Below are positions 491 to 19,935 of a stretch of DNA of 20,244 nt, in pieces. A program made the translations under genes and the position numbers. The notes beneath the pieces are model-generated. The model had not been told where the DNA came from and searched no databases. It saw only the letters and a program-made list of their open reading frames with translations. Origin of the DNA: a virus; IMG/VR virus record IMGVR_UViG_3300020470_001428, positions 1 through 20,244 of that record; one strand, written 5' to 3'. The number at the start of each line of letters is the position of its first letter. Position 1 is the stretch's first letter.

Positions 491-553
491 GTCTTACTTA
501 AACAAACTTAGGGAATTTTCTGAAAATAAAAACGGCACTGTTTTCATTCCGTG

Positions 554-559
554 TATAAT
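554..559 (+). promoter_or_regulatory. Consensus -10 box (TATAAT) upstream of the nrdA leader
   Basis: A perfect TATAAT lies at 554-559 in the only large non-coding gap. A start near 566 would place the structured segment at the very 5' end of the transcript. No convincing TTGACA-like -35 is present at 15-19 bp spacing; position 531-536 reads AACGGC. If this is a promoter it may need an activator, a phage factor, or an alternative sigma. Chance occurrence in A+T-rich DNA is possible. Confidence 0.45.
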
Positions 560-565
560 ATCTTG

Positions 566-703
566 TTGGGTTAAAAAGAGCTTCATAAAGAGAGCTAGAG
601 CGACACCAACTCAACATGCCACTGTTGCACCAAGTTAGTAGTTAAAACTTTACATTTCAACCCCTAATCAATTTCTTGGTAAAACATGTGTCGCTCTTTT
701 TAT
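566..703 (+). ncRNA. Candidate structured RNA (small RNA or nrdA leader)
   Basis: About 138 nt lie between the likely start after the TATAAT box and a T-run. Complementary segments can be read directly. AGAGCGACAC at 597-606 pairs perfectly with GTGTCGCTCT at 688-697. CAACA at 612-616 pairs with TGTTG at 623-627, with a 6-nt loop. ACCAAG at 629-634 pairs with CTTGGT at 675-680. These three are nested consistently: one closing stem holding two inner helices. Possible extra pairings are GGGTT 568-572 with AACCC 659-663 (pseudoknot-like) and GTTGG 565-569 with CCAAC 606-610 (competes with the closing stem). I do not recognise a known riboswitch, tRNA or intron. It may be a stand-alone RNA or an attenuator for the reductase operon starting 31 nt downstream. 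Confidence 0.45.
597..702 (+). terminator. Possible intrinsic terminator or attenuator formed by the closing stem
   Basis: The 10-bp perfect stem 597-606/688-697 is followed at once by five T's (697-701) and then ATATTCTG, the layout of a rho-independent terminator. The loop of about 80 nt is far larger than usual but contains its own helices. It could end transcripts from upstream genes, or act conditionally ahead of nrdA. Confidence 0.4.
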
Positions 704-734
704 ATTCTGTAAAACATAAGCGTGTGGACATCTA

Positions 735-3194
735 ATGACATCAAATATCAAGGTTAAGAAGCGTAACGGAAGACTGGAAGAAGTAAACCTAGATAAGATA
801 AACAAATGCGTAGAAAGAGCTTGCGAAAACTTAGATGATGTAAATGCTAGTGAAGTGGTTCTTGATGCAAGCCTTCAGCTTTATAATAAAATAACTACGT
901 CTGAAATAGACACGGCTTTGATAATGTCAGCTCGCTCAAAAATAGAGCAAGAGCCAAACTATAACTACGTTGCTACCAACTTGCTTCTTGCAAGCCTGTA
1001 TAAAGAAGTCTTTGGCAAAAGCGTCAATGGAGACTTTGCAGATGAATACAAATCTTGTTTCATAAAAAATATCAAGACTCTTGTAAAAGAAGACAGGCTC
1101 AGTGAAGATATTCTTGATTATGACTTAGAACTACTTAGCGAAAATCTAGTTATAGAAAGAGACAAAAATTTTAAGTATTTAGGAATTCAAACTCTATACG
1201 ATAGATACTTCATACATAAAGAAGGCAGACGTATGGAAACGCCTCAAGCATTTTACATGCGTGTTGCGATGGGTCTTTGTCTAAATGAAGAAAATAAAGA
1301 AGAGAGAGCTATTGAAATTTACAATATGATGTCTGAGTTTAGATACTCACCGTCTACACCAACTCTTTTCAATAGTGGAACTTGTCACTCTCAATTATCA
1401 TCTTGTTACCTAAGCACAGTAGACGATTCTATTGATGGAATTTTTGGTACTATTCATGGCCAAGCCAGACTATCAAAGTATGCTGGAGGTCTTGGTGTGG
1501 ACTGGAGTTCCGTTCGTTCTACTGGTTCTTATATTAAAGGTACAAATGGTCAGTCTTCTGGATTGATCCCTTGGTTGAAAATATTTAATGACACGCTTGT
1601 CGGCGTTAACCAAGGCGGTAAACGTAAAGGTGCTGGCTGCGCTTACTTAGAGGTGTGGCATCTTGACGTTGAAGACTTTTTAGACCTAAGAAAAAATACA
1701 GGCGATGATCGTCGCCGTTGTCATGACATGAATACCGCCTTATGGATTTGCGATGAATTTATGCTTGCAGCTCAAAAAGGCAGAGATTGGTATCTATTTG
1801 ACCCGTCTGAATGTCCTGATCTACATGAAACATACGGCAAAAAGTTTACAAGAGTTTATAACAAATACAAGAAGATGGCAAAAGAGGGAGATATTAAAAA
1901 CTTCCGTGTTATAAACGCTAAAGATTTATGGAAGAAGATGCTCAAGTCCTTGTATGAAACAGGGCATCCATGGATTACTTTTAAAGATCCTTCTAATATT
2001 CGTTACAGCAATAAACATGAAGGTGTAGTTCATTCCTCTAATTTATGTACAGAGATACTTCTTCATACTAAACCAACGACATATGAAGATGGTGAGGTTG
2101 TTGAAGTAGGAGAGACCGCCGTTTGTAACCTTGCCTCTATCAATCTTGAGAATCATGTTAAGGTTCGCACTATTGACTGGAAGAAGCTACAAAAAACAGT
2201 AGAGGTGGCCATCAGAGGTTTGGATAATGTCATTGATATTAACTTTTACCCAACTAAAGAAGCCGCCAAGTCTAATCTAAGAAACCGCCCTGTTGGTCTA
2301 GGTATTATGGGTACTCATGGCTTGCTTCACAAGTTAGGAGTCGTTTACAATTCTCAAGATGCTGTGCTTCTCTGTGGCAAGATACAAGAATTTATCTCTT
2401 ACCATGCCATCCTGACCTCTTCTAAACTAGCGAAGGAAAGAGGTCATTACGAATCTTATGAGGGTTCAGAATGGAGTTATGGCAATTTGCCCATCGACAC
2501 TTATTGTCGTTTGATGAACGAGAGACACCCAGAATACACAAAGAGTGGTGGAGACAATCATTACAAGTCCTCCGATTTTGAAAAAATGGATTGGGGCAAA
2601 GTCAGAAGCCATATAGCTGTACATGGAATGAGAAATTCAAATGTTATGGCTATTGCTCCTACTGCAACAATTTCTTATATACAAGGATGCTCACAGTCTA
2701 TTGAGCCTGACTATTCGGTGCTTTTTGTCTACTCAACATTGAGTGGAGAATTCACAATGATTAATGAGCATTTTGTAGAAGTCGCTAAGAAAAATGGCAT
2801 ATGGGGAAAAGACCTCATCGAAGCGTTGAAAGCCGCTGATGGAGATGTCATGTCTATTAATTTAGACGAGGAAATACAGCGAGAATTTAAAACCGCTTTT
2901 GACATTGAAGCAAATATATTGATAGATGCTGCGGCTGAAAGACAAAAATGGATTGATATGGGAGAATCTCTCAATCTATATAATAAAGGCACAAGCCTAA
3001 AATATCTCAACGACATGTATATGCACGCTTGGGAGCAAGGTTTAAAAACAACATATTACTTGAGAAGCAAAGCGGCTACGAGACTTGAGAAGTCTACTGT
3101 TCAAACTGTTAAAGAACAGGAAGTGCCTGAAGAAGATTTAAGTAAAATCAAAGCTTGCTCTATAGACGACCCAGATTGTGAAAGTTGCCAATAA
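735..3194 (+). CDS. nrdA: Class I ribonucleotide reductase large subunit
   Basis: The catalytic subunit that reduces ribonucleoside diphosphates to deoxy forms, working with NrdB. Its 819 residues match class I alpha subunits. An ATP-cone regulatory domain fills about residues 3-95 (starting VKKRNGRLEEVNLDKIN). Active-site residues are all present: first redox Cys at C224 (SQLSSCYLS), N436-x-C438-x-E440 (NLCTEI) with the thiyl-radical Cys, and second redox Cys C464 (AVCNLASINL). Near the C-terminus a Tyr-Tyr pair (TTYYLRS) fits the radical-transfer dyad, and the tail ends CESCQ, supplying the CxxC that re-reduces the active site. The TAA overlaps the nrdB ATG. The start at 735 has only a weak ribosome site (GTGTGGA). 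The ATP cone implies dATP/ATP overall activity control. Identification is secure. Confidence 0.97.
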   Translation: MTSNIKVKKRNGRLEEVNLDKINKCVERACENLDDVNASEVVLDASLQLYNKITTSEIDTALIMSARSKIEQEPNYNYVATNLLLASLYKEVFGKSVNGDFADEYKSCFIKNIKTLVKEDRLSEDILDYDLELLSENLVIERDKNFKYLGIQTLYDRYFIHKEGRRMETPQAFYMRVAMGLCLNEENKEERAIEIYNMMSEFRYSPSTPTLFNSGTCHSQLSSCYLSTVDDSIDGIFGTIHGQARLSKYAGGLGVDWSSVRSTGSYIKGTNGQSSGLIPWLKIFNDTLVGVNQGGKRKGAGCAYLEVWHLDVEDFLDLRKNTGDDRRRCHDMNTALWICDEFMLAAQKGRDWYLFDPSECPDLHETYGKKFTRVYNKYKKMAKEGDIKNFRVINAKDLWKKMLKSLYETGHPWITFKDPSNIRYSNKHEGVVHSSNLCTEILLHTKPTTYEDGEVVEVGETAVCNLASINLENHVKVRTIDWKKLQKTVEVAIRGLDNVIDINFYPTKEAAKSNLRNRPVGLGIMGTHGLLHKLGVVYNSQDAVLLCGKIQEFISYHAILTSSKLAKERGHYESYEGSEWSYGNLPIDTYCRLMNERHPEYTKSGGDNHYKSSDFEKMDWGKVRSHIAVHGMRNSNVMAIAPTATISYIQGCSQSIEPDYSVLFVYSTLSGEFTMINEHFVEVAKKNGIWGKDLIEALKAADGDVMSINLDEEIQREFKTAFDIEANILIDAAAERQKWIDMGESLNLYNKGTSLKYLNDMYMHAWEQGLKTTYYLRSKAATRLEKSTVQTVKEQEVPEEDLSKIKACSIDDPDCESCQ

Positions 3195-4201
3195 TGAAAA
3201 AGACTAAAGAAATCATTTCTGATAAAGTCGCTGTAGTAAACCAAATTCTTCCCCATACAAACAAATGGGCTTGGGATTTGTTTATTGATGGCGCAGCTAA
3301 TAACTGGATGCCAACAGAAATTTCTATGGCTAAAGACATTGAACAGTGGCGTTCTGATTTGTTGACTAATGATGAGAAGCTCGTGGTAAAAAGATCTTTA
3401 GGATTCTTTGCTGGTTCAGAGTCTTTAGTAGCCAACAATCTTCTTTTAAGTATCTTCAAGTATGTAACCGATCCTGAGTGTCGCCAATATATACTTAGAC
3501 AGGCTTACGAAGAAAGCCTACATAACTTAACGGTTGTCTACTGCTGCGATTCTCTCGGTCTAAAAATTGATGAAGTCTACCAAGCATACAACTCAATACC
3601 TAGCATCAAGTCTAAAGACGAGTTCCTGATGAATATCTGTACCGATATTAATAGGCCGGACTTTAACATCAACACTTTAGAAGGCAAGAGAGAGTTTCTA
3701 AGAAACATTATTACCTACTATGTTATCTGCGAAGGAATATTTTTCTTCTCCGGTTTTGCAATGCTTCTATCTTTTAATAGACAAAATAAACTACCGGGAA
3801 TTGGAGAACAAATTCAGTACACTCTTCGTGATGAAAGTTTGCATATTAAATTTGGAACAACTCTTATCAATAGAATTAGAGAAGATAATCCAAAGGTTTG
3901 GACTAAAGCTTTTGAAAAGGAAACCTTAGAACACATAGATAAAGCTATGGAACTTGAACTTGCTTACGCAAGAGACGTTCTTCCAAACGGTATCTTAGGT
4001 TTGAATTCTGATATGTTTATTGACTATGTACAATACATAGCAAATCGAAGGCTAGAAGATTTGAATTTACCAAGTCCTTATGAAGATACTAAAAACCCAT
4101 TTCCTTGGTTAAGTGAAATTATCGACTTAGAGAAATGTAAGAACTTCTTTGAAACTCGCGTTACTGAATATGCAGTTGGAAACATTGAAGACGATTTCTA
4201 A
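3194..4201 (+). CDS. nrdB: Ribonucleotide reductase small subunit lacking the radical tyrosine (class Ic/Id-like)
   Basis: The dimetal radical-generating partner of NrdA, 335 residues from the ATG that overlaps nrdA's stop (TAATG). Metal ligands read in order: E76 (GSES), E107 and H110 (EESLH), E180 (CEGIFFF), E214 and H217 (DESLH). The first carboxylate is Glu rather than the Asp of E. coli-type class Ia. The radical tyrosine of class Ia sits four residues after the first His; here that residue is V114 (HNLTVVY). Chlamydia-type class Ic proteins have Phe there with all-Glu ligands, and the local sequence resembles them. The C-terminal tail keeps the relay Tyr (TEYAVG) and ends in EDDF, as needed to dock on NrdA. 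The metal content (Mn/Fe or Mn/Mn) is inferred, not visible. Confidence 0.95.
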   Translation: MKKTKEIISDKVAVVNQILPHTNKWAWDLFIDGAANNWMPTEISMAKDIEQWRSDLLTNDEKLVVKRSLGFFAGSESLVANNLLLSIFKYVTDPECRQYILRQAYEESLHNLTVVYCCDSLGLKIDEVYQAYNSIPSIKSKDEFLMNICTDINRPDFNINTLEGKREFLRNIITYYVICEGIFFFSGFAMLLSFNRQNKLPGIGEQIQYTLRDESLHIKFGTTLINRIREDNPKVWTKAFEKETLEHIDKAMELELAYARDVLPNGILGLNSDMFIDYVQYIANRRLEDLNLPSPYEDTKNPFPWLSEIIDLEKCKNFFETRVTEYAVGNIEDDF

Positions 4202-6078: not shown

Positions 6079-6388
6079 CGTAGAACAATTTTTGACTCCT
6101 GAAGACACAACTTATGTTTATTACGATAAAGATGGACAAGTTGTAGAAGAAGAAATTGGTTCTTCTTGTGCTTACATAGCTACTGTAAAAGGTAAAAGCT
6201 TTAACTACGTAAAATCCATGAGAGGTCGTTTATTTGACCCTTTTGGCATGGACGCAAATAAGATTAACGCAGTTAATACAAAGTTCTCTAAAGTCAGTGT
6301 TGATACTTTTAACCATTACATAAAGTATTTGGAGACAAAGCAGAATAATAGCTTGACTTGGGCAGAGAGGAGTTTCTTAAATGACTAA
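6068..6388 (+). CDS. Hypothetical protein, 106 aa
   Basis: A 106-residue ORF overlapping its neighbours on both sides. The N-terminal half is acidic and beta-rich (TTYVYYDKDGQVVEEEIG). The second half includes a repeated 'S-x-VxxxxFNxYIKYL' helix-like region and the phrase MRGRLFDPFGMD. There are no cysteine clusters, membrane segments or catalytic motifs. I do not recognise it. Clean overlaps and ordinary composition make it a real gene with high probability. Confidence 0.7.
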   Translation: MSDDVEQFLTPEDTTYVYYDKDGQVVEEEIGSSCAYIATVKGKSFNYVKSMRGRLFDPFGMDANKINAVNTKFSKVSVDTFNHYIKYLETKQNNSLTWAERSFLND

Positions 6389-7568: not shown

Positions 7569-8628
7569 TGCAGCATTAAAAACCATTACTAAAAAATACG
7601 GAAATATATTGGTTAATGGAGCTGATGTATTTGAAGAACTGCAAGACATGCAGGTTATTCCTGTAAGCCCATCTCTAGACTATGCTCTTGGTGGTGGTTT
7701 TCGAGAAGGAACTTGGATTCAAATGATTGGAGATCCAAAGTCTGGAAAAACAACTACAGCTTTACAATTCGCTGCAAATTGCCAGAAAAAAGAATATGGA
7801 GAAAGACCCATATTTTATGTGAATGTAGAAGGTAGATTAAGCACAAAGAACTTTGAGGGAGTTCATGGTTTAGACGCTAGCAAGATTACTGTAGTTCAGT
7901 CTGAAACAGAAACTCTTAGCGCAGAGAAGTATTTAGGCGCTATAGAAAAGATAGTAAAAGCGCATCCTAATTGTGTCGTAATTATTGATTCGATATCTAG
8001 CTTTATAGCACAGAAAGATCTGGACGAAGAAGTAAGAGGCGATTATAGACCGGGAGTTCCTAAGATATTGTCTAACTTCTGCAAGAAGATGAGCAGTATT
8101 GTTCCTAAACAAAGGGCTATCATCATCATGATTACACACTTCATTGCTAACACTGGTGGTATGGGAAAAAAGAAAGTAGCCGATGGCGGCGTAAAGGTTC
8201 GCTATCAAGCAGACACGATACTGGAAATTGCTTGGATTCAAGCGTGGAAAGAAAAGAATGATGGCCGACAAATTGGACAAGCATTACACTGGAAAGTGAT
8301 TACTTCTGCGCTTGGAGGTTTTGTGGGAGCAGAAGCTATTGGATGGCTTCGCTATGGCACAGGCATTGATTACAAGCAAGAGTTATTCGATCAGGCAAAC
8401 GACTTCGATTTGATTTCCGCAGCTGGAGCTTGGTACACATGTGATTTTTTAGTCGATGACCCGAAGCCTATAAAAAAACTTTTAGAATCCGAAGGAATCG
8501 AAAAAGATGATGAAGAAAAGATTACTAAATTGGTCAAGTTTCAAGGTCAACAAAAGCTCAGAGCTTTTCTTGATGAACACGATCTATGGCCTGCTTTACA
8601 AAATTCATTAAAGGAAATGCTGTTTTGA
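7561..8628 (+). CDS. RecA/UvsX-family recombinase
   Basis: A strand-exchange ATPase that forms filaments on single-stranded DNA and, in T4-like phages, starts recombination-dependent replication. In 355 residues the core reads SLDYALGGGFREGTWIQMIG, Walker A GDPKSGKTT at 57-65, a strand YVNVEGRL with the likely catalytic E90, and Walker B CVVIIDSISSF with D143. The C-terminal third is helical and acidic. It lacks the large C-terminal domain features of bacterial RecA and is closer in length to UvsX (about 390). GGAG at 7547-7550 precedes ATG 7561. A frame-overlapping endonuclease gene follows. I leave the symbol blank because RecA and UvsX cannot be told apart by eye. Confidence 0.93.
   Translation: MSDAALKTITKKYGNILVNGADVFEELQDMQVIPVSPSLDYALGGGFREGTWIQMIGDPKSGKTTTALQFAANCQKKEYGERPIFYVNVEGRLSTKNFEGVHGLDASKITVVQSETETLSAEKYLGAIEKIVKAHPNCVVIIDSISSFIAQKDLDEEVRGDYRPGVPKILSNFCKKMSSIVPKQRAIIIMITHFIANTGGMGKKKVADGGVKVRYQADTILEIAWIQAWKEKNDGRQIGQALHWKVITSALGGFVGAEAIGWLRYGTGIDYKQELFDQANDFDLISAAGAWYTCDFLVDDPKPIKKLLESEGIEKDDEEKITKLVKFQGQQKLRAFLDEHDLWPALQNSLKEMLF
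8610..8615 (+). promoter_or_regulatory. Ribosome binding site deciding a TTG start
   Basis: AAAGGA at 8610-8615 lies 9 nt before TTG at 8625. This makes the TTG, in a TTGA overlap with the recombinase stop, a better start than the in-frame ATG at 8586, which lies deep inside the recombinase gene without a comparable site. Confidence 0.6.
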
Positions 8629-9047
8629 AAGCCATAGGTTTTGATGGCCGAGAAAGAAATTGGAACCTATCAAAGTGCGTAGTTTCAGGAGATCAGACAA
8701 GACCTCGAAGTAAATTGCATATTTTAGCAAGAAAATTACTCCGTGAGCAGTTTCCTTATGATACAATTCTTGAGGAAGTGCCGCTTGTCGGCTCACATAA
8801 GCCATCAAGAAAATCTACTCTATACGTTGATTTCTTGATACCGTCATATTCTTTGGCGGTAGAAGTACATGGGCGACAGCACTTTGAATTTGTCGCCCAT
8901 TTTCATGGCAACAGACAAGGTTTCAGAAAGTCAAAAGCTAGAGATAGAGACAAAGCAAATTGGCTTCATAACAATGACATAGAACTTGTCATTTTAAGTT
9001 ATTCAGGAACAGAGGATGAATGGCGAGAATCAATTATCAATAGATAG
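8625..9047 (+). CDS. Vsr/DUF559-like PD-(D/E)XK endonuclease
   Basis: A 140-residue nuclease of the very-short-patch-repair-like fold. Visible elements: helix RSKLHILARKLLREQF (28-43), E51 (ILEEVPL), D69 in LYVDFLIPS, then LAVEVHGRQHFEF with E80, H82 and H86, and a basic segment KARDRDKANW (104-113). The order E...D...ExH...H...D matches Vsr-type enzymes and the EDxHD homing-endonuclease family related to them. It starts at TTG 8625, supported by the ribosome site at 8610-8615. EDxHD enzymes have been described in a phage recA intron, so its position just after a recA-like gene is notable. Alternatives are a structure-specific replication nuclease or a mismatch-nicking enzyme. The fold assignment is firm, the substrate unknown. 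Confidence 0.75.
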   Translation: MKAIGFDGRERNWNLSKCVVSGDQTRPRSKLHILARKLLREQFPYDTILEEVPLVGSHKPSRKSTLYVDFLIPSYSLAVEVHGRQHFEFVAHFHGNRQGFRKSKARDRDKANWLHNNDIELVILSYSGTEDEWRESIINR

Positions 9048-14860: not shown

Positions 14861-15555
14861 ATCAGCAAATAGACGGAAATATCAAAGGTCATCCGAGAAG
14901 GTCTTCTAATGGTCAAGATCTTTACGTTTACTATATGCTTGGTGATAATGGTTACTTTGTTGATATTGGAGCGCATGATGGAAAAGATGGCAGTAATACA
15001 TACGCTTTAGAAAAAGCTGGATGGAATGGCATATGCGTTGAACCCAGTCCTGTTCATCAAGAATCTCTGTCTAATCATAGAGATTGCATCATTGATACTT
15101 CTTTGGTCTATGGCGAAAAAGTAAAGAAAAAATACTTCATACATAATTACGCTGAGAGGTATGAGCAGTACAAAAAACAGAAAGAGCTTCTCGAAAGCCA
15201 AGGTCATAAATTTATAAACTTCCACGCTTATTTAGGTGGAAGCGGTATTGTTGACCATCTTGATGAAGACTATGAAGACAGGCTAGAAGGCGAGTATGTA
15301 GAGCTAGAAACAACTACTTTGCTAGACATATTAAAAAGATACGACGCCCCAAGAGTAATAGAATTTTTAGATATTGACATTGAAGGAGCAGAGTTTGAAG
15401 TAATTAAAAACTTCCCCTTTGATGAATATGAGTTTAAGATAATTTGCATTGAAGTTAGACCTCACACGAGAGAGCCTATTACTGAGCATTTAACAGCGAA
15501 TGGTTATAGGTACGCTCAAGATATTGGTCAGGACGCCATATTTAGGAAAATTTGA
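14857..15555 (+). CDS. FkbM-family SAM-dependent methyltransferase
   Basis: A class I methyltransferase, 232 residues. Motif I is GYFVDIGAHDG (32-42), followed by NTYALEKAGWNGICVEP, whose acidic residue would bind the SAM ribose, and a late block EFLDIDIEGAEFEVI matching the 'DvEGaE' signature of the FkbM family. Members usually methylate sugars or small molecules, often in glycan synthesis. It lies between nuclease and polymerase genes, with ATGA and TGATG overlaps on either side, so it is co-expressed with replication. No signal peptide or membrane segment is present. The substrate is unknown: a glycosylated phage component, a host glycan or a modified base are possibilities. Confidence 0.85.
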   Translation: MNQQIDGNIKGHPRRSSNGQDLYVYYMLGDNGYFVDIGAHDGKDGSNTYALEKAGWNGICVEPSPVHQESLSNHRDCIIDTSLVYGEKVKKKYFIHNYAERYEQYKKQKELLESQGHKFINFHAYLGGSGIVDHLDEDYEDRLEGEYVELETTTLLDILKRYDAPRVIEFLDIDIEGAEFEVIKNFPFDEYEFKIICIEVRPHTREPITEHLTANGYRYAQDIGQDAIFRKI

Positions 15556-17468
15556 TGACTTGGACACCACTGCATCTACACACTCACTACAGCCTTTTGG
15601 ACGGCCTCAGTAAGCCCTCACAGGTCGCTGAGCGATGTTCTAGCTTAGGTTATACCTCTTGCGCCTTGACCGATCACGGCACTATATCAGGCGCTGTGGC
15701 CTTTACACAGGCAATGAAGAAAAAGAATATCAAGCCTATTCTTGGGTGTGAGTTTTACCTAAGCCAGCAAGATTGCAAAGTGAAGTCCGAGGAAAATAGA
15801 AGCCTCAGTCATTTATGCGTGCTTGCTAAAAACAAAAAGGGTTGGAACAATCTAATTCAAGCAGTTTCAAAAAGTAATGACGAAGAAAATTACTACTACA
15901 AGCCGAGGTTAGATCTTGCAGAATTAAACCTTTTTGCAGATGGCAACTTGATAGCTTACAGTGGGCATCTTGGTAGTGATTTAGCAAATGCAATATTTGT
16001 AGATCCAAAATCTGCTTACAATGCAAAAACAGAAGAGGAAGCTAAAAGGTATACACATCCAAACTGGGATAGTGAAGTACTGAAGATTGCAAATAGGTAT
16101 AGGACCATATTTGGCAAAGAAAACTTTTTCATTGAGATACAAGCTATTGATCAAGATAATTCTCCAGCAGCAAAGCTAGTAGTTCAAGGTCTACGATACA
16201 TAGCTAAAAAGTATAAGTTTCAAACTGTAGCTACAGCAGACTCACATTATCCAGAGAAAAAAGATGCAAACGATCAACTACTGCTCCTTTGTTCCGCATT
16301 AAAAACTACTCTGCCTAAAATCAAGAAAAAGCTAAGAGAGTCTGGAGAAGCTGCGTTTGCTGGCTTTTTAAAATCCAATAACTTTCATATTCCATCTCTT
16401 GAAGAAATACAAAATGTAAACACGGCACAAGAAATAGAAAACTCAATGCTAATAGCTAGTATGTGCGAAGACTACAACATACTAGGTAAGCCAATGCTTC
16501 CTAAATTCAAATGCCCGAAGGACTTCTCAGAAGACCAATATCTGAGACATCTATGTAGAGAAGGCTGGAAAAGCAGATTAGCCCCAACAGGAAAAGTAAA
16601 TACCGAACAAAGTAAACAAGTATATGCAGATCAAATCAAGAAAGAACTTGATGTTATCAGTGATGCAAACTTAGCTGGCTACTTTTTAATAGTTAGAGAC
16701 ATTGTTAACAGTGTAGTTGATAAGAATCATATTCCCGGACCGGGAAGAGGCTCTGCTGCTGGATGTTTAGTATCATACTTAGTAGGAATAACACAGGTTG
16801 ACCCAATTGATTATGGCTTATTGTTTGAACGTTTTTACAATGCGGGAAGAAATACTGAAGACCATGTATCCCTGCCTGATATTGATATAGATGTTCCAGC
16901 TAATAAAAGAGATGAAACAATAGACTATATACGAAGTAAGTATGGAAGTGAAAAAGTCGGACAGATGGTAACATTTGGAAGATTGCAAGGTCGAGGCGCA
17001 ATTAAAGAAGTTTTGAGAATGAATGAAGCTTGCGGCTATGACCAAATGAACGAAATAACAAAAAGTCTTCCGCATGAGCATGAAGTATCCGACCAATTAG
17101 CAGAGATGGATAACCCATCTGTAATTAAGTGGACTCTCATGAACCAACCAGAAACACTTCGTGGCTATTGTAGATTAAATGATGATGGTGTTCTTGAAGG
17201 CGATTACGCTAAATTTTTCGATCAGGCTATGAGAATAGAGGGGACTTTTAAGTCACAAGGTAAACATGCCGCTGGCGTAGTAATATCCTCTCATGATCTC
17301 AATGATGTTTGCCCAATGGTAAGAGACAAAAGAGGTAGCGAGAAGATAGCTGGAATGGAAATGAATGATTTAGAATCTATGGGTCATGTAAAATTCGACA
17401 TTCTTGGTATTTCACTAATGGATAAAATGATGGGAATTAGAGATCAACTAAAGGAAAGACATGGATAG
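15555..17468 (+). CDS. dnaE: DNA polymerase III alpha subunit, N-terminal half (PHP + palm with all catalytic Asp)
   Basis: The first piece of a split replicative polymerase, 637 residues. A PHP domain (about 1-270) opens with HLHTHYSLLDG (H7, H9, H11) and keeps TDHG (D40, H41), E66 (GCEFY), H86 (LSHLCVL) and a late DSHY, so most metal ligands of an active PHP domain are present. The palm has PGPGRGSAAG, the catalytic pair D444 and D446 (PDIDIDV), SQGKHAAGVVISS, and the third Asp D615 (VKFDILG, E. coli D555 equivalent). The protein stops 22 residues later. The start is ATG 15555 (TGATG overlap), with AGGA at 15544-15547. The break is a clean stop codon within the family alignment, not a frameshift within a run. 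The C-terminal half is at 18343-19935. Confidence 0.93.
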   Translation: MTWTPLHLHTHYSLLDGLSKPSQVAERCSSLGYTSCALTDHGTISGAVAFTQAMKKKNIKPILGCEFYLSQQDCKVKSEENRSLSHLCVLAKNKKGWNNLIQAVSKSNDEENYYYKPRLDLAELNLFADGNLIAYSGHLGSDLANAIFVDPKSAYNAKTEEEAKRYTHPNWDSEVLKIANRYRTIFGKENFFIEIQAIDQDNSPAAKLVVQGLRYIAKKYKFQTVATADSHYPEKKDANDQLLLLCSALKTTLPKIKKKLRESGEAAFAGFLKSNNFHIPSLEEIQNVNTAQEIENSMLIASMCEDYNILGKPMLPKFKCPKDFSEDQYLRHLCREGWKSRLAPTGKVNTEQSKQVYADQIKKELDVISDANLAGYFLIVRDIVNSVVDKNHIPGPGRGSAAGCLVSYLVGITQVDPIDYGLLFERFYNAGRNTEDHVSLPDIDIDVPANKRDETIDYIRSKYGSEKVGQMVTFGRLQGRGAIKEVLRMNEACGYDQMNEITKSLPHEHEVSDQLAEMDNPSVIKWTLMNQPETLRGYCRLNDDGVLEGDYAKFFDQAMRIEGTFKSQGKHAAGVVISSHDLNDVCPMVRDKRGSEKIAGMEMNDLESMGHVKFDILGISLMDKMMGIRDQLKERHG

Positions 17469-17682
17469 GAAGACTAGCTACAGGCAAAACATAAAAGACA
17501 AGATTGAGTCAGGTAGGTATGTAGACTACAAAGGGCTAACTATTTGCAGGATAAATGACTTCTATCCCCTTATGCACAAAAAAATCAGATATCAAGTACA
17601 CTCTTATTTTTTCAGCAAGTTATATGAAGATGTTGATGAAGCGTTAGACAAATTTTTTGAAATTAGAAGGAAGATAAGATGA
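17461..17682 (+). CDS. Small hypothetical protein inserted in the split polymerase locus, 73 aa
   Basis: A 73-residue basic protein lying between the two polymerase halves. It starts at ATG 17461, with an excellent ribosome site AAAGGA at 17450-17455, overlaps the first half by 8 nt and ends in an ATGA overlap with the exonuclease. The sequence is rich in Lys, Arg and Tyr (DRKTSYRQNIKDKIESG, then a C-terminal helix VDEALDKFFEIRRKIR). I recognise no motif, and it is not an intein fragment or a recognisable piece of DnaE. It could be an accessory subunit bridging the polymerase parts, but only position suggests that. Confidence 0.75.
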   Translation: MDRKTSYRQNIKDKIESGRYVDYKGLTICRINDFYPLMHKKIRYQVHSYFFSKLYEDVDEALDKFFEIRRKIR

Positions 17683-18362
17683 ATTATAAAGACATTATTG
17701 TTTTTGATTTTGAAACGGGTTCTAGAAATCCAGAAAAAACGCAGCCTATACAAATTGCGGCTGTTGCCATACATGGCCGTAAGTTGACCGTCCAGCCAGA
17801 CGGTTACTTTGAAAGCTTGATTAGACCTATATTGGACGACGAAGAAGCAATCAAGATGGGACTAGATCCTATTCAAGATGAAGCATTAGCTGTAAATGGC
17901 AAAACAAGAGCAGAGCTTGCGAAAGCTCCTTCAGAACGGACTGTATGGAAAAAGTTCACAAACTTTGTAAATAAATACAACTGGAAAGGAACTCCTTACT
18001 TCGCTCCGATTGCAGCGGGTTATAATATCGTTGGTTTTGATATGCCGATTGTTCAAAGAATGTGTGAACTATATGGGCCAATCGACAAGAAGACAGGAAA
18101 GCAGACACTCTTTAACAAAATCCACAGGATTGACGTAATGGATAACGTCTGGATGTGGATGGAAAACAATGCAGATGTTAAATCGTTAAGTATGGATTCC
18201 ATGCGAGACTTATTTGGCATGAGTAAAGAAAACGCTCATGATGCTTTGCAAGACGTTAAAGATACGGCCAACCTAATGATTGGCTTTATGAAACTACATA
18301 GAAGAATTGCGCCGAAGATTAAATTTGAAAAGGCTTTTGCTGATGGAAACCTCCACATTTGA
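17679..18362 (+). CDS. DEDDh 3'-5' exonuclease (DnaQ/epsilon-like)
   Basis: A 227-residue proofreading-type exonuclease. ExoI is D10-F-E12-T-G (VFDFETGS). ExoII holds N116 and D121 (AGYNIVGFD). ExoIII is H187-DALQ-D192 (AHDALQDV), where H-x4-D marks the DEDDh subtype to which DnaQ and the PolC exonuclease belong. It likely removes mismatched 3' ends for the split polymerase whose two halves flank it; the ribosome site AGAAGGAAG at 17665-17673 and ATGA overlap give coupled expression. No clamp-binding peptide is obvious. The C-terminal tail KFEKAFADGNLHI overlaps the start of the second polymerase half by 20 nt. Confidence 0.92.
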   Translation: MNYKDIIVFDFETGSRNPEKTQPIQIAAVAIHGRKLTVQPDGYFESLIRPILDDEEAIKMGLDPIQDEALAVNGKTRAELAKAPSERTVWKKFTNFVNKYNWKGTPYFAPIAAGYNIVGFDMPIVQRMCELYGPIDKKTGKQTLFNKIHRIDVMDNVWMWMENNADVKSLSMDSMRDLFGMSKENAHDALQDVKDTANLMIGFMKLHRRIAPKIKFEKAFADGNLHI

Positions 18363-19935
18363 ACCGCTTGAACTTGGATTTGAAGATGAAAAAGCTTGGG
18401 ATCTAATATGCTCAGGAAAAACAAAAGGTGTTTTTCAGCTAGAGAGCAACTTAGGTAAGTCTTGGGCCAAAAGAGTTCAGCCAAAAAACATTGAAGAACT
18501 ATCTGCTCTAATATCAATTATTAGACCGGGAACATTGAAAGCCATCGTAGATGGTAAATCAATGACTCAGCACTATGTTGATAGGAAGAACGGAGTGCAA
18601 GAAATAACTTATCTTCACCCGTCCCTTGAGCCAATCCTCAAGAAAACTCAAGGAGTTCTTGTATACCAAGAGCAGTCTATGCAGATTGCACAACAATTGG
18701 CAGGGTTCAACCTTCAAGAAGCTGACAATCTTCGCAAGGCTATTGGTAAGAAAAAAGCAGACTTGATGGCTAAGGTAAAAGAGGACTTTTTAAAAGGAGC
18801 CTCCGAACAAGGCATCATCACGACAGAAGAGGCTGAAGAGATTTTTAGCTGGATTGAGAAATCTAGTCGTTATGCTTTTAATAAATCCCATGCTGTATCT
18901 TATGCAATATGTGCATATTGGAGCGCTTATGCTAAGGCTCACTTTCCGCTAGAATTTTATTGTAACTACCTCATTCATTCTTCTGGCAAGCCAGATCCGC
19001 AACAAGAAGTTAGAGAGCTAGTTAACGATGCAAAGAATTTAGAGATATATGTAAATCCTCCATCAATAAAAGCTCTGAATACCCAAACAGACATAATCGA
19101 AGACCGCATACATTTCGGTCTAATAGACATAAAATCTGTTGGGGCAAAACAAATTGATAAGTTTAGGGATGCGGTAGTATATCTAGAGCAAACTATAGGC
19201 AAGCAACTTTGTGAAGTTAATTGGTATGAGTTTCTCATTTTAGCTTCGCAAAAAATCAACTCAAGAATGTTGACAGCTTTAATATCAGTAGGGTTTTTTG
19301 CAGATCTTCCAGAGAGTAGACAGCAAATGTTAGATGAGTTTGATACTTGGTCAAACATAACTAAAAAAGAAGCTGAATGGGCAGAAAGCAACTTTGAAAA
19401 TTACGAAAGTTTAGTAGATTTGCTGAAAGCTATGGCTCCTGTTAAGAAAGATGGAGGAGCAGCATTTAACTCCAAACGCTCTCAAATAATTTCTGATTTA
19501 GTTATCCAATGTGAAAACCCATCCTATTCTCTAAAAGACGATCCTGAATGGGTTATCAGAACCGAAGAGAACTACTTAGGAATAGGACTTACATATTCAA
19601 GGGTAGAAGCCTATGACACTAGCTTAGCCAACACCACTATTAAAGAATTTATTAATGGTAAAAGGGGCAATGTTAAAATGGCCGTTACTATAAATGAGGT
19701 CAAGAGATACACTGCTAAAAAGGGTAAAGCTATTGGCCTTGAAATGGCCTTTTTATGCGTCGAGGATACTACAGGTACTATGGACAGCGTTACAGTATTT
19801 AGTGATCAATGGGATAAATACAAAAACATTTTATACGAAGGGAATAACGTGATCTTGATTGGACAAGATTCAAAAAAGAAAAGATACCAATTAGACGATG
19901 GCTTCATAGTCAATGAAGTCATTGAGTTACGTTGA
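18343..19935 (+). CDS. dnaE: DNA polymerase III alpha subunit, C-terminal half (fingers, HhH, OB-fold)
   Basis: The second piece of the split polymerase, 530 residues from ATG 18343, with AAGG at 18330-18333. It resumes where the first ends: an LGFEDEKAWDLICSGKTKGVFQLES opening corresponds to the E. coli region after FDFLGL, where DDKKSFDML and VFQLES occur. The fingers contain YAFNKSHAVSYA (177-188) and LGKKKADLM-like charged segments; a helix-hairpin-helix-type region follows near GVGAKQIDKFRD; an OB-fold begins near 443 (VKRYTAKKGKAIG, then EMAFLCVEDTTG). 637 + 530 = 1167 residues, close to full-length E. coli DnaE (1160), so nothing large is missing. TTG 18307 is also in frame but lacks support. 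Confidence 0.93.
   Translation: METSTFEPLELGFEDEKAWDLICSGKTKGVFQLESNLGKSWAKRVQPKNIEELSALISIIRPGTLKAIVDGKSMTQHYVDRKNGVQEITYLHPSLEPILKKTQGVLVYQEQSMQIAQQLAGFNLQEADNLRKAIGKKKADLMAKVKEDFLKGASEQGIITTEEAEEIFSWIEKSSRYAFNKSHAVSYAICAYWSAYAKAHFPLEFYCNYLIHSSGKPDPQQEVRELVNDAKNLEIYVNPPSIKALNTQTDIIEDRIHFGLIDIKSVGAKQIDKFRDAVVYLEQTIGKQLCEVNWYEFLILASQKINSRMLTALISVGFFADLPESRQQMLDEFDTWSNITKKEAEWAESNFENYESLVDLLKAMAPVKKDGGAAFNSKRSQIISDLVIQCENPSYSLKDDPEWVIRTEENYLGIGLTYSRVEAYDTSLANTTIKEFINGKRGNVKMAVTINEVKRYTAKKGKAIGLEMAFLCVEDTTGTMDSVTVFSDQWDKYKNILYEGNNVILIGQDSKKKRYQLDDGFIVNEVIELR

Follow-up and report, generated by a model that had tools for sequence, protein, structure and literature searches.

A pseudoknotted RNA with a terminator-like closing helix ahead of ribonucleotide reductase genes in uncultured phages: a probable cis-acting leader

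Results

The window analyzed here is the whole of IMG/VR record IMGVR_UViG_3300020470_001428, 20,244 bases on one strand, 5′ to 3′, with genes for NrdA, NrdB, a dUTPase, PhoH, a UvsX-like recombinase, a DnaB-like helicase, a primase and a split DNA polymerase III alpha. The large subunit of a class I ribonucleotide reductase (RNR) is encoded by nrdA (735–3194, + strand; Pfam Ribonuc_red_lgC and ATP-cone, NCBIfam PRK07207), the gene probably regulated by the RNA described below, and nrdA shares an operon with nrdB for the small subunit (3185–4201, + strand; Pfam Ribonuc_red_sm). The NrdA has no close match among cultured phages, the best in the collection being 49% identical. Elsewhere in the window the family C polymerase (PolIII alpha) occupies two ORFs within 15552–19935, with PHP and NTPase domains at 15552–17468 and the finger domain at 18307–19935, separated by a 73-aa ORF and a DnaQ-like exonuclease (RNase_T, 17679–18362). 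An HNH endonuclease-like ORF (8586–9047) lies directly 3′ of the UvsX-like gene, and has the same place in a related contig (L067).

The gap ahead of nrdA, which starts at 735, is covered by no ORF and holds a series of features on the + strand, several of which the initial annotation had correctly located. The TATAAT box that it placed at 554–559 is part of a −10 region, GTGTATAAT (551–559), that stands directly 5′ of the RNA in nearly all clades. Across 198 kb of loci, 15 of 19 occurrences of GTGTATAAT were directly 5′ of the RNA, and of the four others the one in L126 also directly precedes it, having been missed by the pattern used. No sigma-70 two-hexamer match was found in the promoter region, and the promoter is therefore probably −10 driven or extended. 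Near the predicted transcript start is the 5′ strand of helix P1, GUUGGGUU (565–572), which pairs with its 3′ strand, AACUCAAC (608–615). It is followed by an unpaired, A-rich and conserved junction J1/2, AAAAAG at 573–578 (AUAAAG in the consensus, from the covariance model (CM) and a comparison table), and by the P2 hairpin (579–596; AGCUU 579–583 with GAGCU 592–596), which covaries across clades. The perfect 10-bp stem noted earlier is P3, with AGAGCGACAC (597–606) pairing with GUGUCGCUCU (688–697), and comparison of relatives indicates that the latter strand doubles as the 3′ half of a terminator-like stem; the U-run at 697–701 lies directly 3′ of P3 in most clades. The helix ACCAAG 629–634/CUUGGU 675–680, likewise present as first described, forms the P5 arm (629–680) in the long third loop. 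A further and stronger alternative helix, perfect over 10 bp in the window and overlooked in the first reading, joins UAAAAAGAGC (572–581) to GCUCUUUUUA (693–702) and is a candidate antiterminator.

In the window alone these structures are no better than chance. The minimum-free-energy z-score was −1.66, with 14 of 200 shuffles folding as well, which is not significant, and three perfect 10-bp inverted repeats with loops of 30–120 nt were found against a mean of 2.2 in dinucleotide-shuffled windows. The window's own stem and folding energy were consequently dropped as evidence; the stem, on which the first reading had relied, becomes convincing only once relatives are compared.

Relatives were sought in IMG/VR through NrdA, class II RNR and E. 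coli-type NrdA, and also through DNA patterns independent of RNR. Distinct copies in IMG/VR contigs numbered 55 by motif, with 57 covariance-model matches and further copies beyond these, and the phages carrying them are uncultured and mostly marine. They share a common plan that runs from the GTGTATAAT promoter through the P1 5′ strand, AUAAAG, the P2 hairpin, GCUARAGCGRCAC, the P1 3′ strand, a variable arm of 65–129 nt, GUGUCGCU and an intrinsic terminator to RNR, with the last 8–10 nt of GCUARAGCGRCAC forming the P3 5′ strand and GUGUCGCU its 3′ strand. Four clades were distinguished: clade A, the window-like copies (L001–L009, L036, L048, L076, L082) and a class II group close to them; clade B (L014–L020, L040, L051); clade C (L021–L032 and relatives), situated about 130 nt before nrdA; and clade D (L031, L037, L053). 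One copy (L012, 2700–3000) follows this plan except that its P3 5′ strand is broken (AAAATTCAC versus GTGTCGTTT). Other pattern matches (L066, L069, L071, L073 and L078 as examples, and L201) were G+C-rich or coding stretches that lacked the motif and were rejected, as was the only match among genome contigs (L206, Vibrio maerlii), which was inside a coding gene and lacked the pseudoknot, so that it is not a host copy. No CM match occurred in 398 Pseudomonadota genomes, searched under strict filters and with no positive control. Against cultured phages, blastn with this region of the window found no relevant match, and the four phages with the nearest RNRs had no copy of the RNA. T4 Gp23, used as a taxonomic marker, was not found, its control being equally silent.

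Since P1 and P3 cross, the two helices (565–572/608–615 and 597–606/688–697) form an H-type pseudoknot, whose first loop contains P2 and whose third loop contains the long arm. The initial annotation had set 565–569 against 606–610 as a pairing that competes with the stem, which was an off-register reading of the conserved P1, and had taken the crossing pairing for an alternative state, where comparison shows it to belong to the fold throughout. Among its four additional pairings, two were not conserved and were rejected as family features: 612–616/623–627, which is mutually exclusive with P1 and was seen only in the window's own clade, and 568–572/659–663. What stood of that reading is a structured RNA between a promoter-like −10 box and a T-run ahead of nrdA, in an arrangement resembling a switch or attenuator, its key pairing having been slightly misread.

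Uncompensated change in the stem would have spoken against this structure, and across clades both P1 and P3 change with compensation. Because MAFFT alone misaligned J1/2 and P2, covariation was counted on a CM-guided alignment (A4), which was fitted to the structure and hence leans towards the model. In this alignment of 57 copies 91% of cells were paired, compared with 70% (sd 1.1) in shuffled and 28–48% in slid controls; double-change cells numbered 187 against 67 (sd 9) in shuffles, and 12 of 13 pairs had changes on both sides. Per-sequence helix searches against shuffles, made for P1, P3 and the alternative helix, are independent of A4, and the sequences in them had been chosen for having P1 and P3, which is somewhat favorable. 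For P1, self complementarity was 9.5 versus 5.5 when shuffled and 6.1 across sequences (43 sequences); on A4, double changes were seen at seven of its eight pairs. P2 occurs as AGCU/AGCU, AGCC/GGCU and AGCGA/UCGCU in different clades, 84–86% of its cells being paired. The anchored P3 helix averaged 9.7 bp versus 3.4 in shuffles, with double changes at pairs 5, 6 and 7 (G-C/A-U and C-G/U-A exchanges, for example in L108, L119 and L126) and A-U/G-U/G-C variation at a fourth position; compensated variants included AGCGACAC/GUGUCGCU, AACGACAC/GUGUCGUU, AAGUGACAC/GUGUCACUU, AAGUAACAC/GUGUUACUU and GAACGGCAC/GUGCCGUUC. Support for the P5 arm was moderate (p<0.05 in 40% of sequences), and compensated variants in the window's wider clade were CUAAG/CUUAG, ACCAAAUA/UAUUUGGU and AUCAAGC/GCUUGAU. 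The alternative helix overlaps P2 and P3 and competes with both, sharing its 3′ arm with P3. Helices of this type reached p<0.05 in 51% of sequences and were 7–12 bp long in clades A and C (12 bp in L202) and weak elsewhere; no antiterminator conserved across all clades was found.

In nearly all copies an intrinsic terminator precedes RNR, consisting either of P3 and a U-run or of a separate hairpin between the RNA and the gene. In most copies P3 runs straight into the U-run, and in the window the G+C-rich stem, ending at 688–697, is followed directly by U697–U701 as in an intrinsic terminator, with a loop of about 80 nt (81 in the window) that is atypical for one. Copies with no U-run after P3 (L010, L026–L029, L126, L173, L176, L213, L239, L277, L289) have a canonical hairpin terminator shortly after it, and two (L107, L178) have no clear terminator. 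The distance from terminator to RNR start codon is usually 13–60 nt, too short to hold another promoter, so that transcription of RNR has to pass through the RNA. Clade C is different in having two terminators in tandem, and a stretch of about 100 nt that includes a promoter-like GGTACAATT box separates them from nrdA.

Searches of whole records with the CM, in about 100 viral contigs of up to 145 kb, gave one strong copy per positive contig, and wherever the downstream gene was readable it was RNR, or one small gene followed by RNR. This linkage holds also for copies found by DNA pattern with no reference to RNR. Three RNR families occur behind the RNA: PRK07207-type NrdA, PRK09103 (E. coli-type) NrdA and an AdoCbl-type class II enzyme, the last closest to AdoCbl-dependent RTPR and below the cut-off of that model. 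Five contigs (L067, L084, L105, L118, L119) have the neighbors of the window, namely the upstream gene and a 62-aa ORF on one side and dUTPase, PhoH and others on the other, and have kept the RNA with a class II RNR in place of nrdAB; in five others (L014, L017, L021, L030, L037) the RNA and nrdAB are found together amid other neighbors. The element therefore follows RNR as a function and not one gene or one locus. Small genes intervene between RNA and RNR in L178, L173, L033, L096 and L097. The intervening gene is a small nuclease-like ORF (...VVRVVDGDTVDIEI...) ahead of the class II RNR in L178 and L173, and an ORF of 66–74 aa (MLDFNSSRDNSKKFE..., MFEKTDGKEAPKFEV...) ahead of nrdA in L033, L096, L097 and L098. 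A tRNA gene (6292–6365) lies downstream of the class II RNR and PhoH in L178.

Discussion

The present study describes an RNA for which the pseudoknot, its covariation, a terminator, strict linkage to RNR and in-place exchange of RNR class are established by sequence comparison, and from these we infer control of RNR by the element. The reading that we favor, with some reserve, is that the RNA is a cis-acting 5′ leader of phage RNR operons, a transcription attenuator that is probably riboswitch-like. Promoter, structured domain, terminator and gene in that order are the usual riboswitch layout, and here a conserved structured domain lies in the 5′ leader of a metabolic gene with an expression platform, the terminator, behind it, apart from two clear exceptions. 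Transcription would start at GTGTATAAT, and the first ~60 nt would form P1, whose loop holds the P2 hairpin, leaving the P3 5′ strand waiting until its 3′ strand emerges and P3 closes the pseudoknot. The U-run directly after P3, or in other clades the separate terminator hairpin, would then end transcription unless the fold were prevented, and read-through would give the RNR mRNA. Because the fully folded pseudoknot would itself be the terminator in clades with the U-run, folding there should lower RNR expression (an OFF state). The best candidate for the ON state, although not universal, is a helix in which J1/2, together with the 5′ strand of P2, pairs with the 3′ strand of P3 and the U-run. 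The signal would most likely be nucleotide-related (a dNTP, an NTP or an RNR product, any such ligand being conjectural), because the RNA is shared by RNRs of the O2-dependent class I and of the AdoCbl-dependent class II. It is possible, as a more tentative extension, that this is a new class of phage riboswitch in which a deoxynucleotide or other RNR-related nucleotide is sensed through an H-type pseudoknot whose closing helix is the terminator, providing direct RNA feedback on class I and class II RNR operons alike. Against a leader we have counted the two copies lacking a clear terminator, the broken P3 5′ strand of L012, the small intervening genes, the 80-nt loop and the want of a universal antiterminator, and the GGTACAATT box of clade C would bypass it.

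The chief alternative is a stand-alone gene for a small RNA, with a promoter, compact pseudoknot and terminator of its own. Its product would act in trans, for instance by binding to the RNR mRNA or to a protein of host or phage, and its adjacency to RNR would reflect functional linkage or inherited synteny. A strong promoter-like box of its own precisely at the 5′ boundary of the fold with a terminator at the 3′ end, the locking of both ends in the pseudoknot as in stable noncoding RNAs, and the tandem terminators and second promoter-like box of clade C are all in keeping with such a gene. We nonetheless consider it less likely, since association with RNR persists across three RNR families, through in-place class exchange and amid unrelated flanks, and since in most clades the space between terminator and RNR is too short for a promoter. 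A structured RNA with a conserved pseudoknot at the start of a transcript, followed by a terminator and an operon, could also work by processive antitermination, as HK022 put and the Bacillus EAR/epsC element do, in which case it would modify host RNA polymerase to read through the terminator into the RNR operon. This is improbable, because in most clades the terminator stem is P3, so that the RNA would be acting on a terminator of its own making, and the Rfam scans run gave no match to EAR/epsC or to any other family. A replication-origin or primer RNA (an R-loop forming transcript) heading a replication module would fit the single copy per contig and the position at the opening of the nrdAB-dUTPase-PhoH-UvsX-helicase block in the window's clade; it is highly improbable given that clades B, C and D share no neighbors with it apart from RNR and that selection acts on RNA pairing, G-U pairs included. 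A chance inverted repeat beside an ordinary terminator, with no RNA element, would account for the lack of significance in the window alone but is contradicted by the covariation counts, with compensatory changes in two crossing helices in more than 55 sequences, and can practically be set aside.

That the RNA was retained while the enzyme was exchanged for a distant type suggests that control lies with metabolites of the pathway and not with the enzyme. Few metabolic genes are as widespread in lytic phages as RNR, and little is known of how they tune it. A general RNA sensor linked to RNR would offer a tractable candidate for a new riboswitch, one whose possible ligands can be clearly listed. 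The RNA could also mark a group of uncultured marine phages.

The RNA appears to be previously uncatalogued, as it matches no Rfam family, in agreement with the initial annotation, which recognized none. Rfam 15 at the gathering score gave no match over the RNA in the window, in nine loci or in 15 further loci; at a permissive E-value the window (500–740) gave only chance-like matches, and at E≤1 there were none over the RNA in L065, L081, L082 and L021. Phage leader RNAs have been described in the literature searched, none of those found being for RNR. A metagenomic "nrdJ motif", named after nrdJ, was reportedly introduced by Weinberg in 2017 (NAR), and our RNA may overlap it; the Rfam 15 scan at E≤1 of the class II loci L065 and L081 gave no match over the RNA. 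Cobalamin riboswitches also occur as leader RNAs upstream of class II RNR (nrdJ), but the Rfam cobalamin model had no match in the loci scanned, and the phage RNA serves class I RNRs as well, which use no B12. In Mesoplasma, 2′-deoxyguanosine riboswitches are located upstream of RNR, like the phage RNA, for which a nucleotide-type ligand is similarly plausible; these are purine-type three-way junctions, whereas the phage RNA has no Rfam match. Similar in setting are manA, wcaG and PhotoRC-II, orphan leader RNAs of riboswitch type from marine phages and metagenomes (Weinberg 2010, PMC2864571). These too are structured, stand in front of metabolic genes in marine phages and are known chiefly through metagenomes, but they precede other genes, and the RNR-linked loci had no Rfam match to them in the scans run. 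Use of a riboswitch by marine phages is also seen in Melnitz and Mosig, where a glutamine riboswitch controls tmRNA (PMC9004378), although this belongs to a known family and no similarity to the RNR-linked RNA was found. For a pseudoknot aptamer embedded in a terminator there is a precedent, the HMP-PP (thiS) riboswitch (PMC6478431), which also shares nucleotides between aptamer and intrinsic terminator. It differs in gene and sequence and in that its terminator and aptamer states exclude each other, whereas in the phage RNA P3 would be pseudoknot helix and terminator stem at once.
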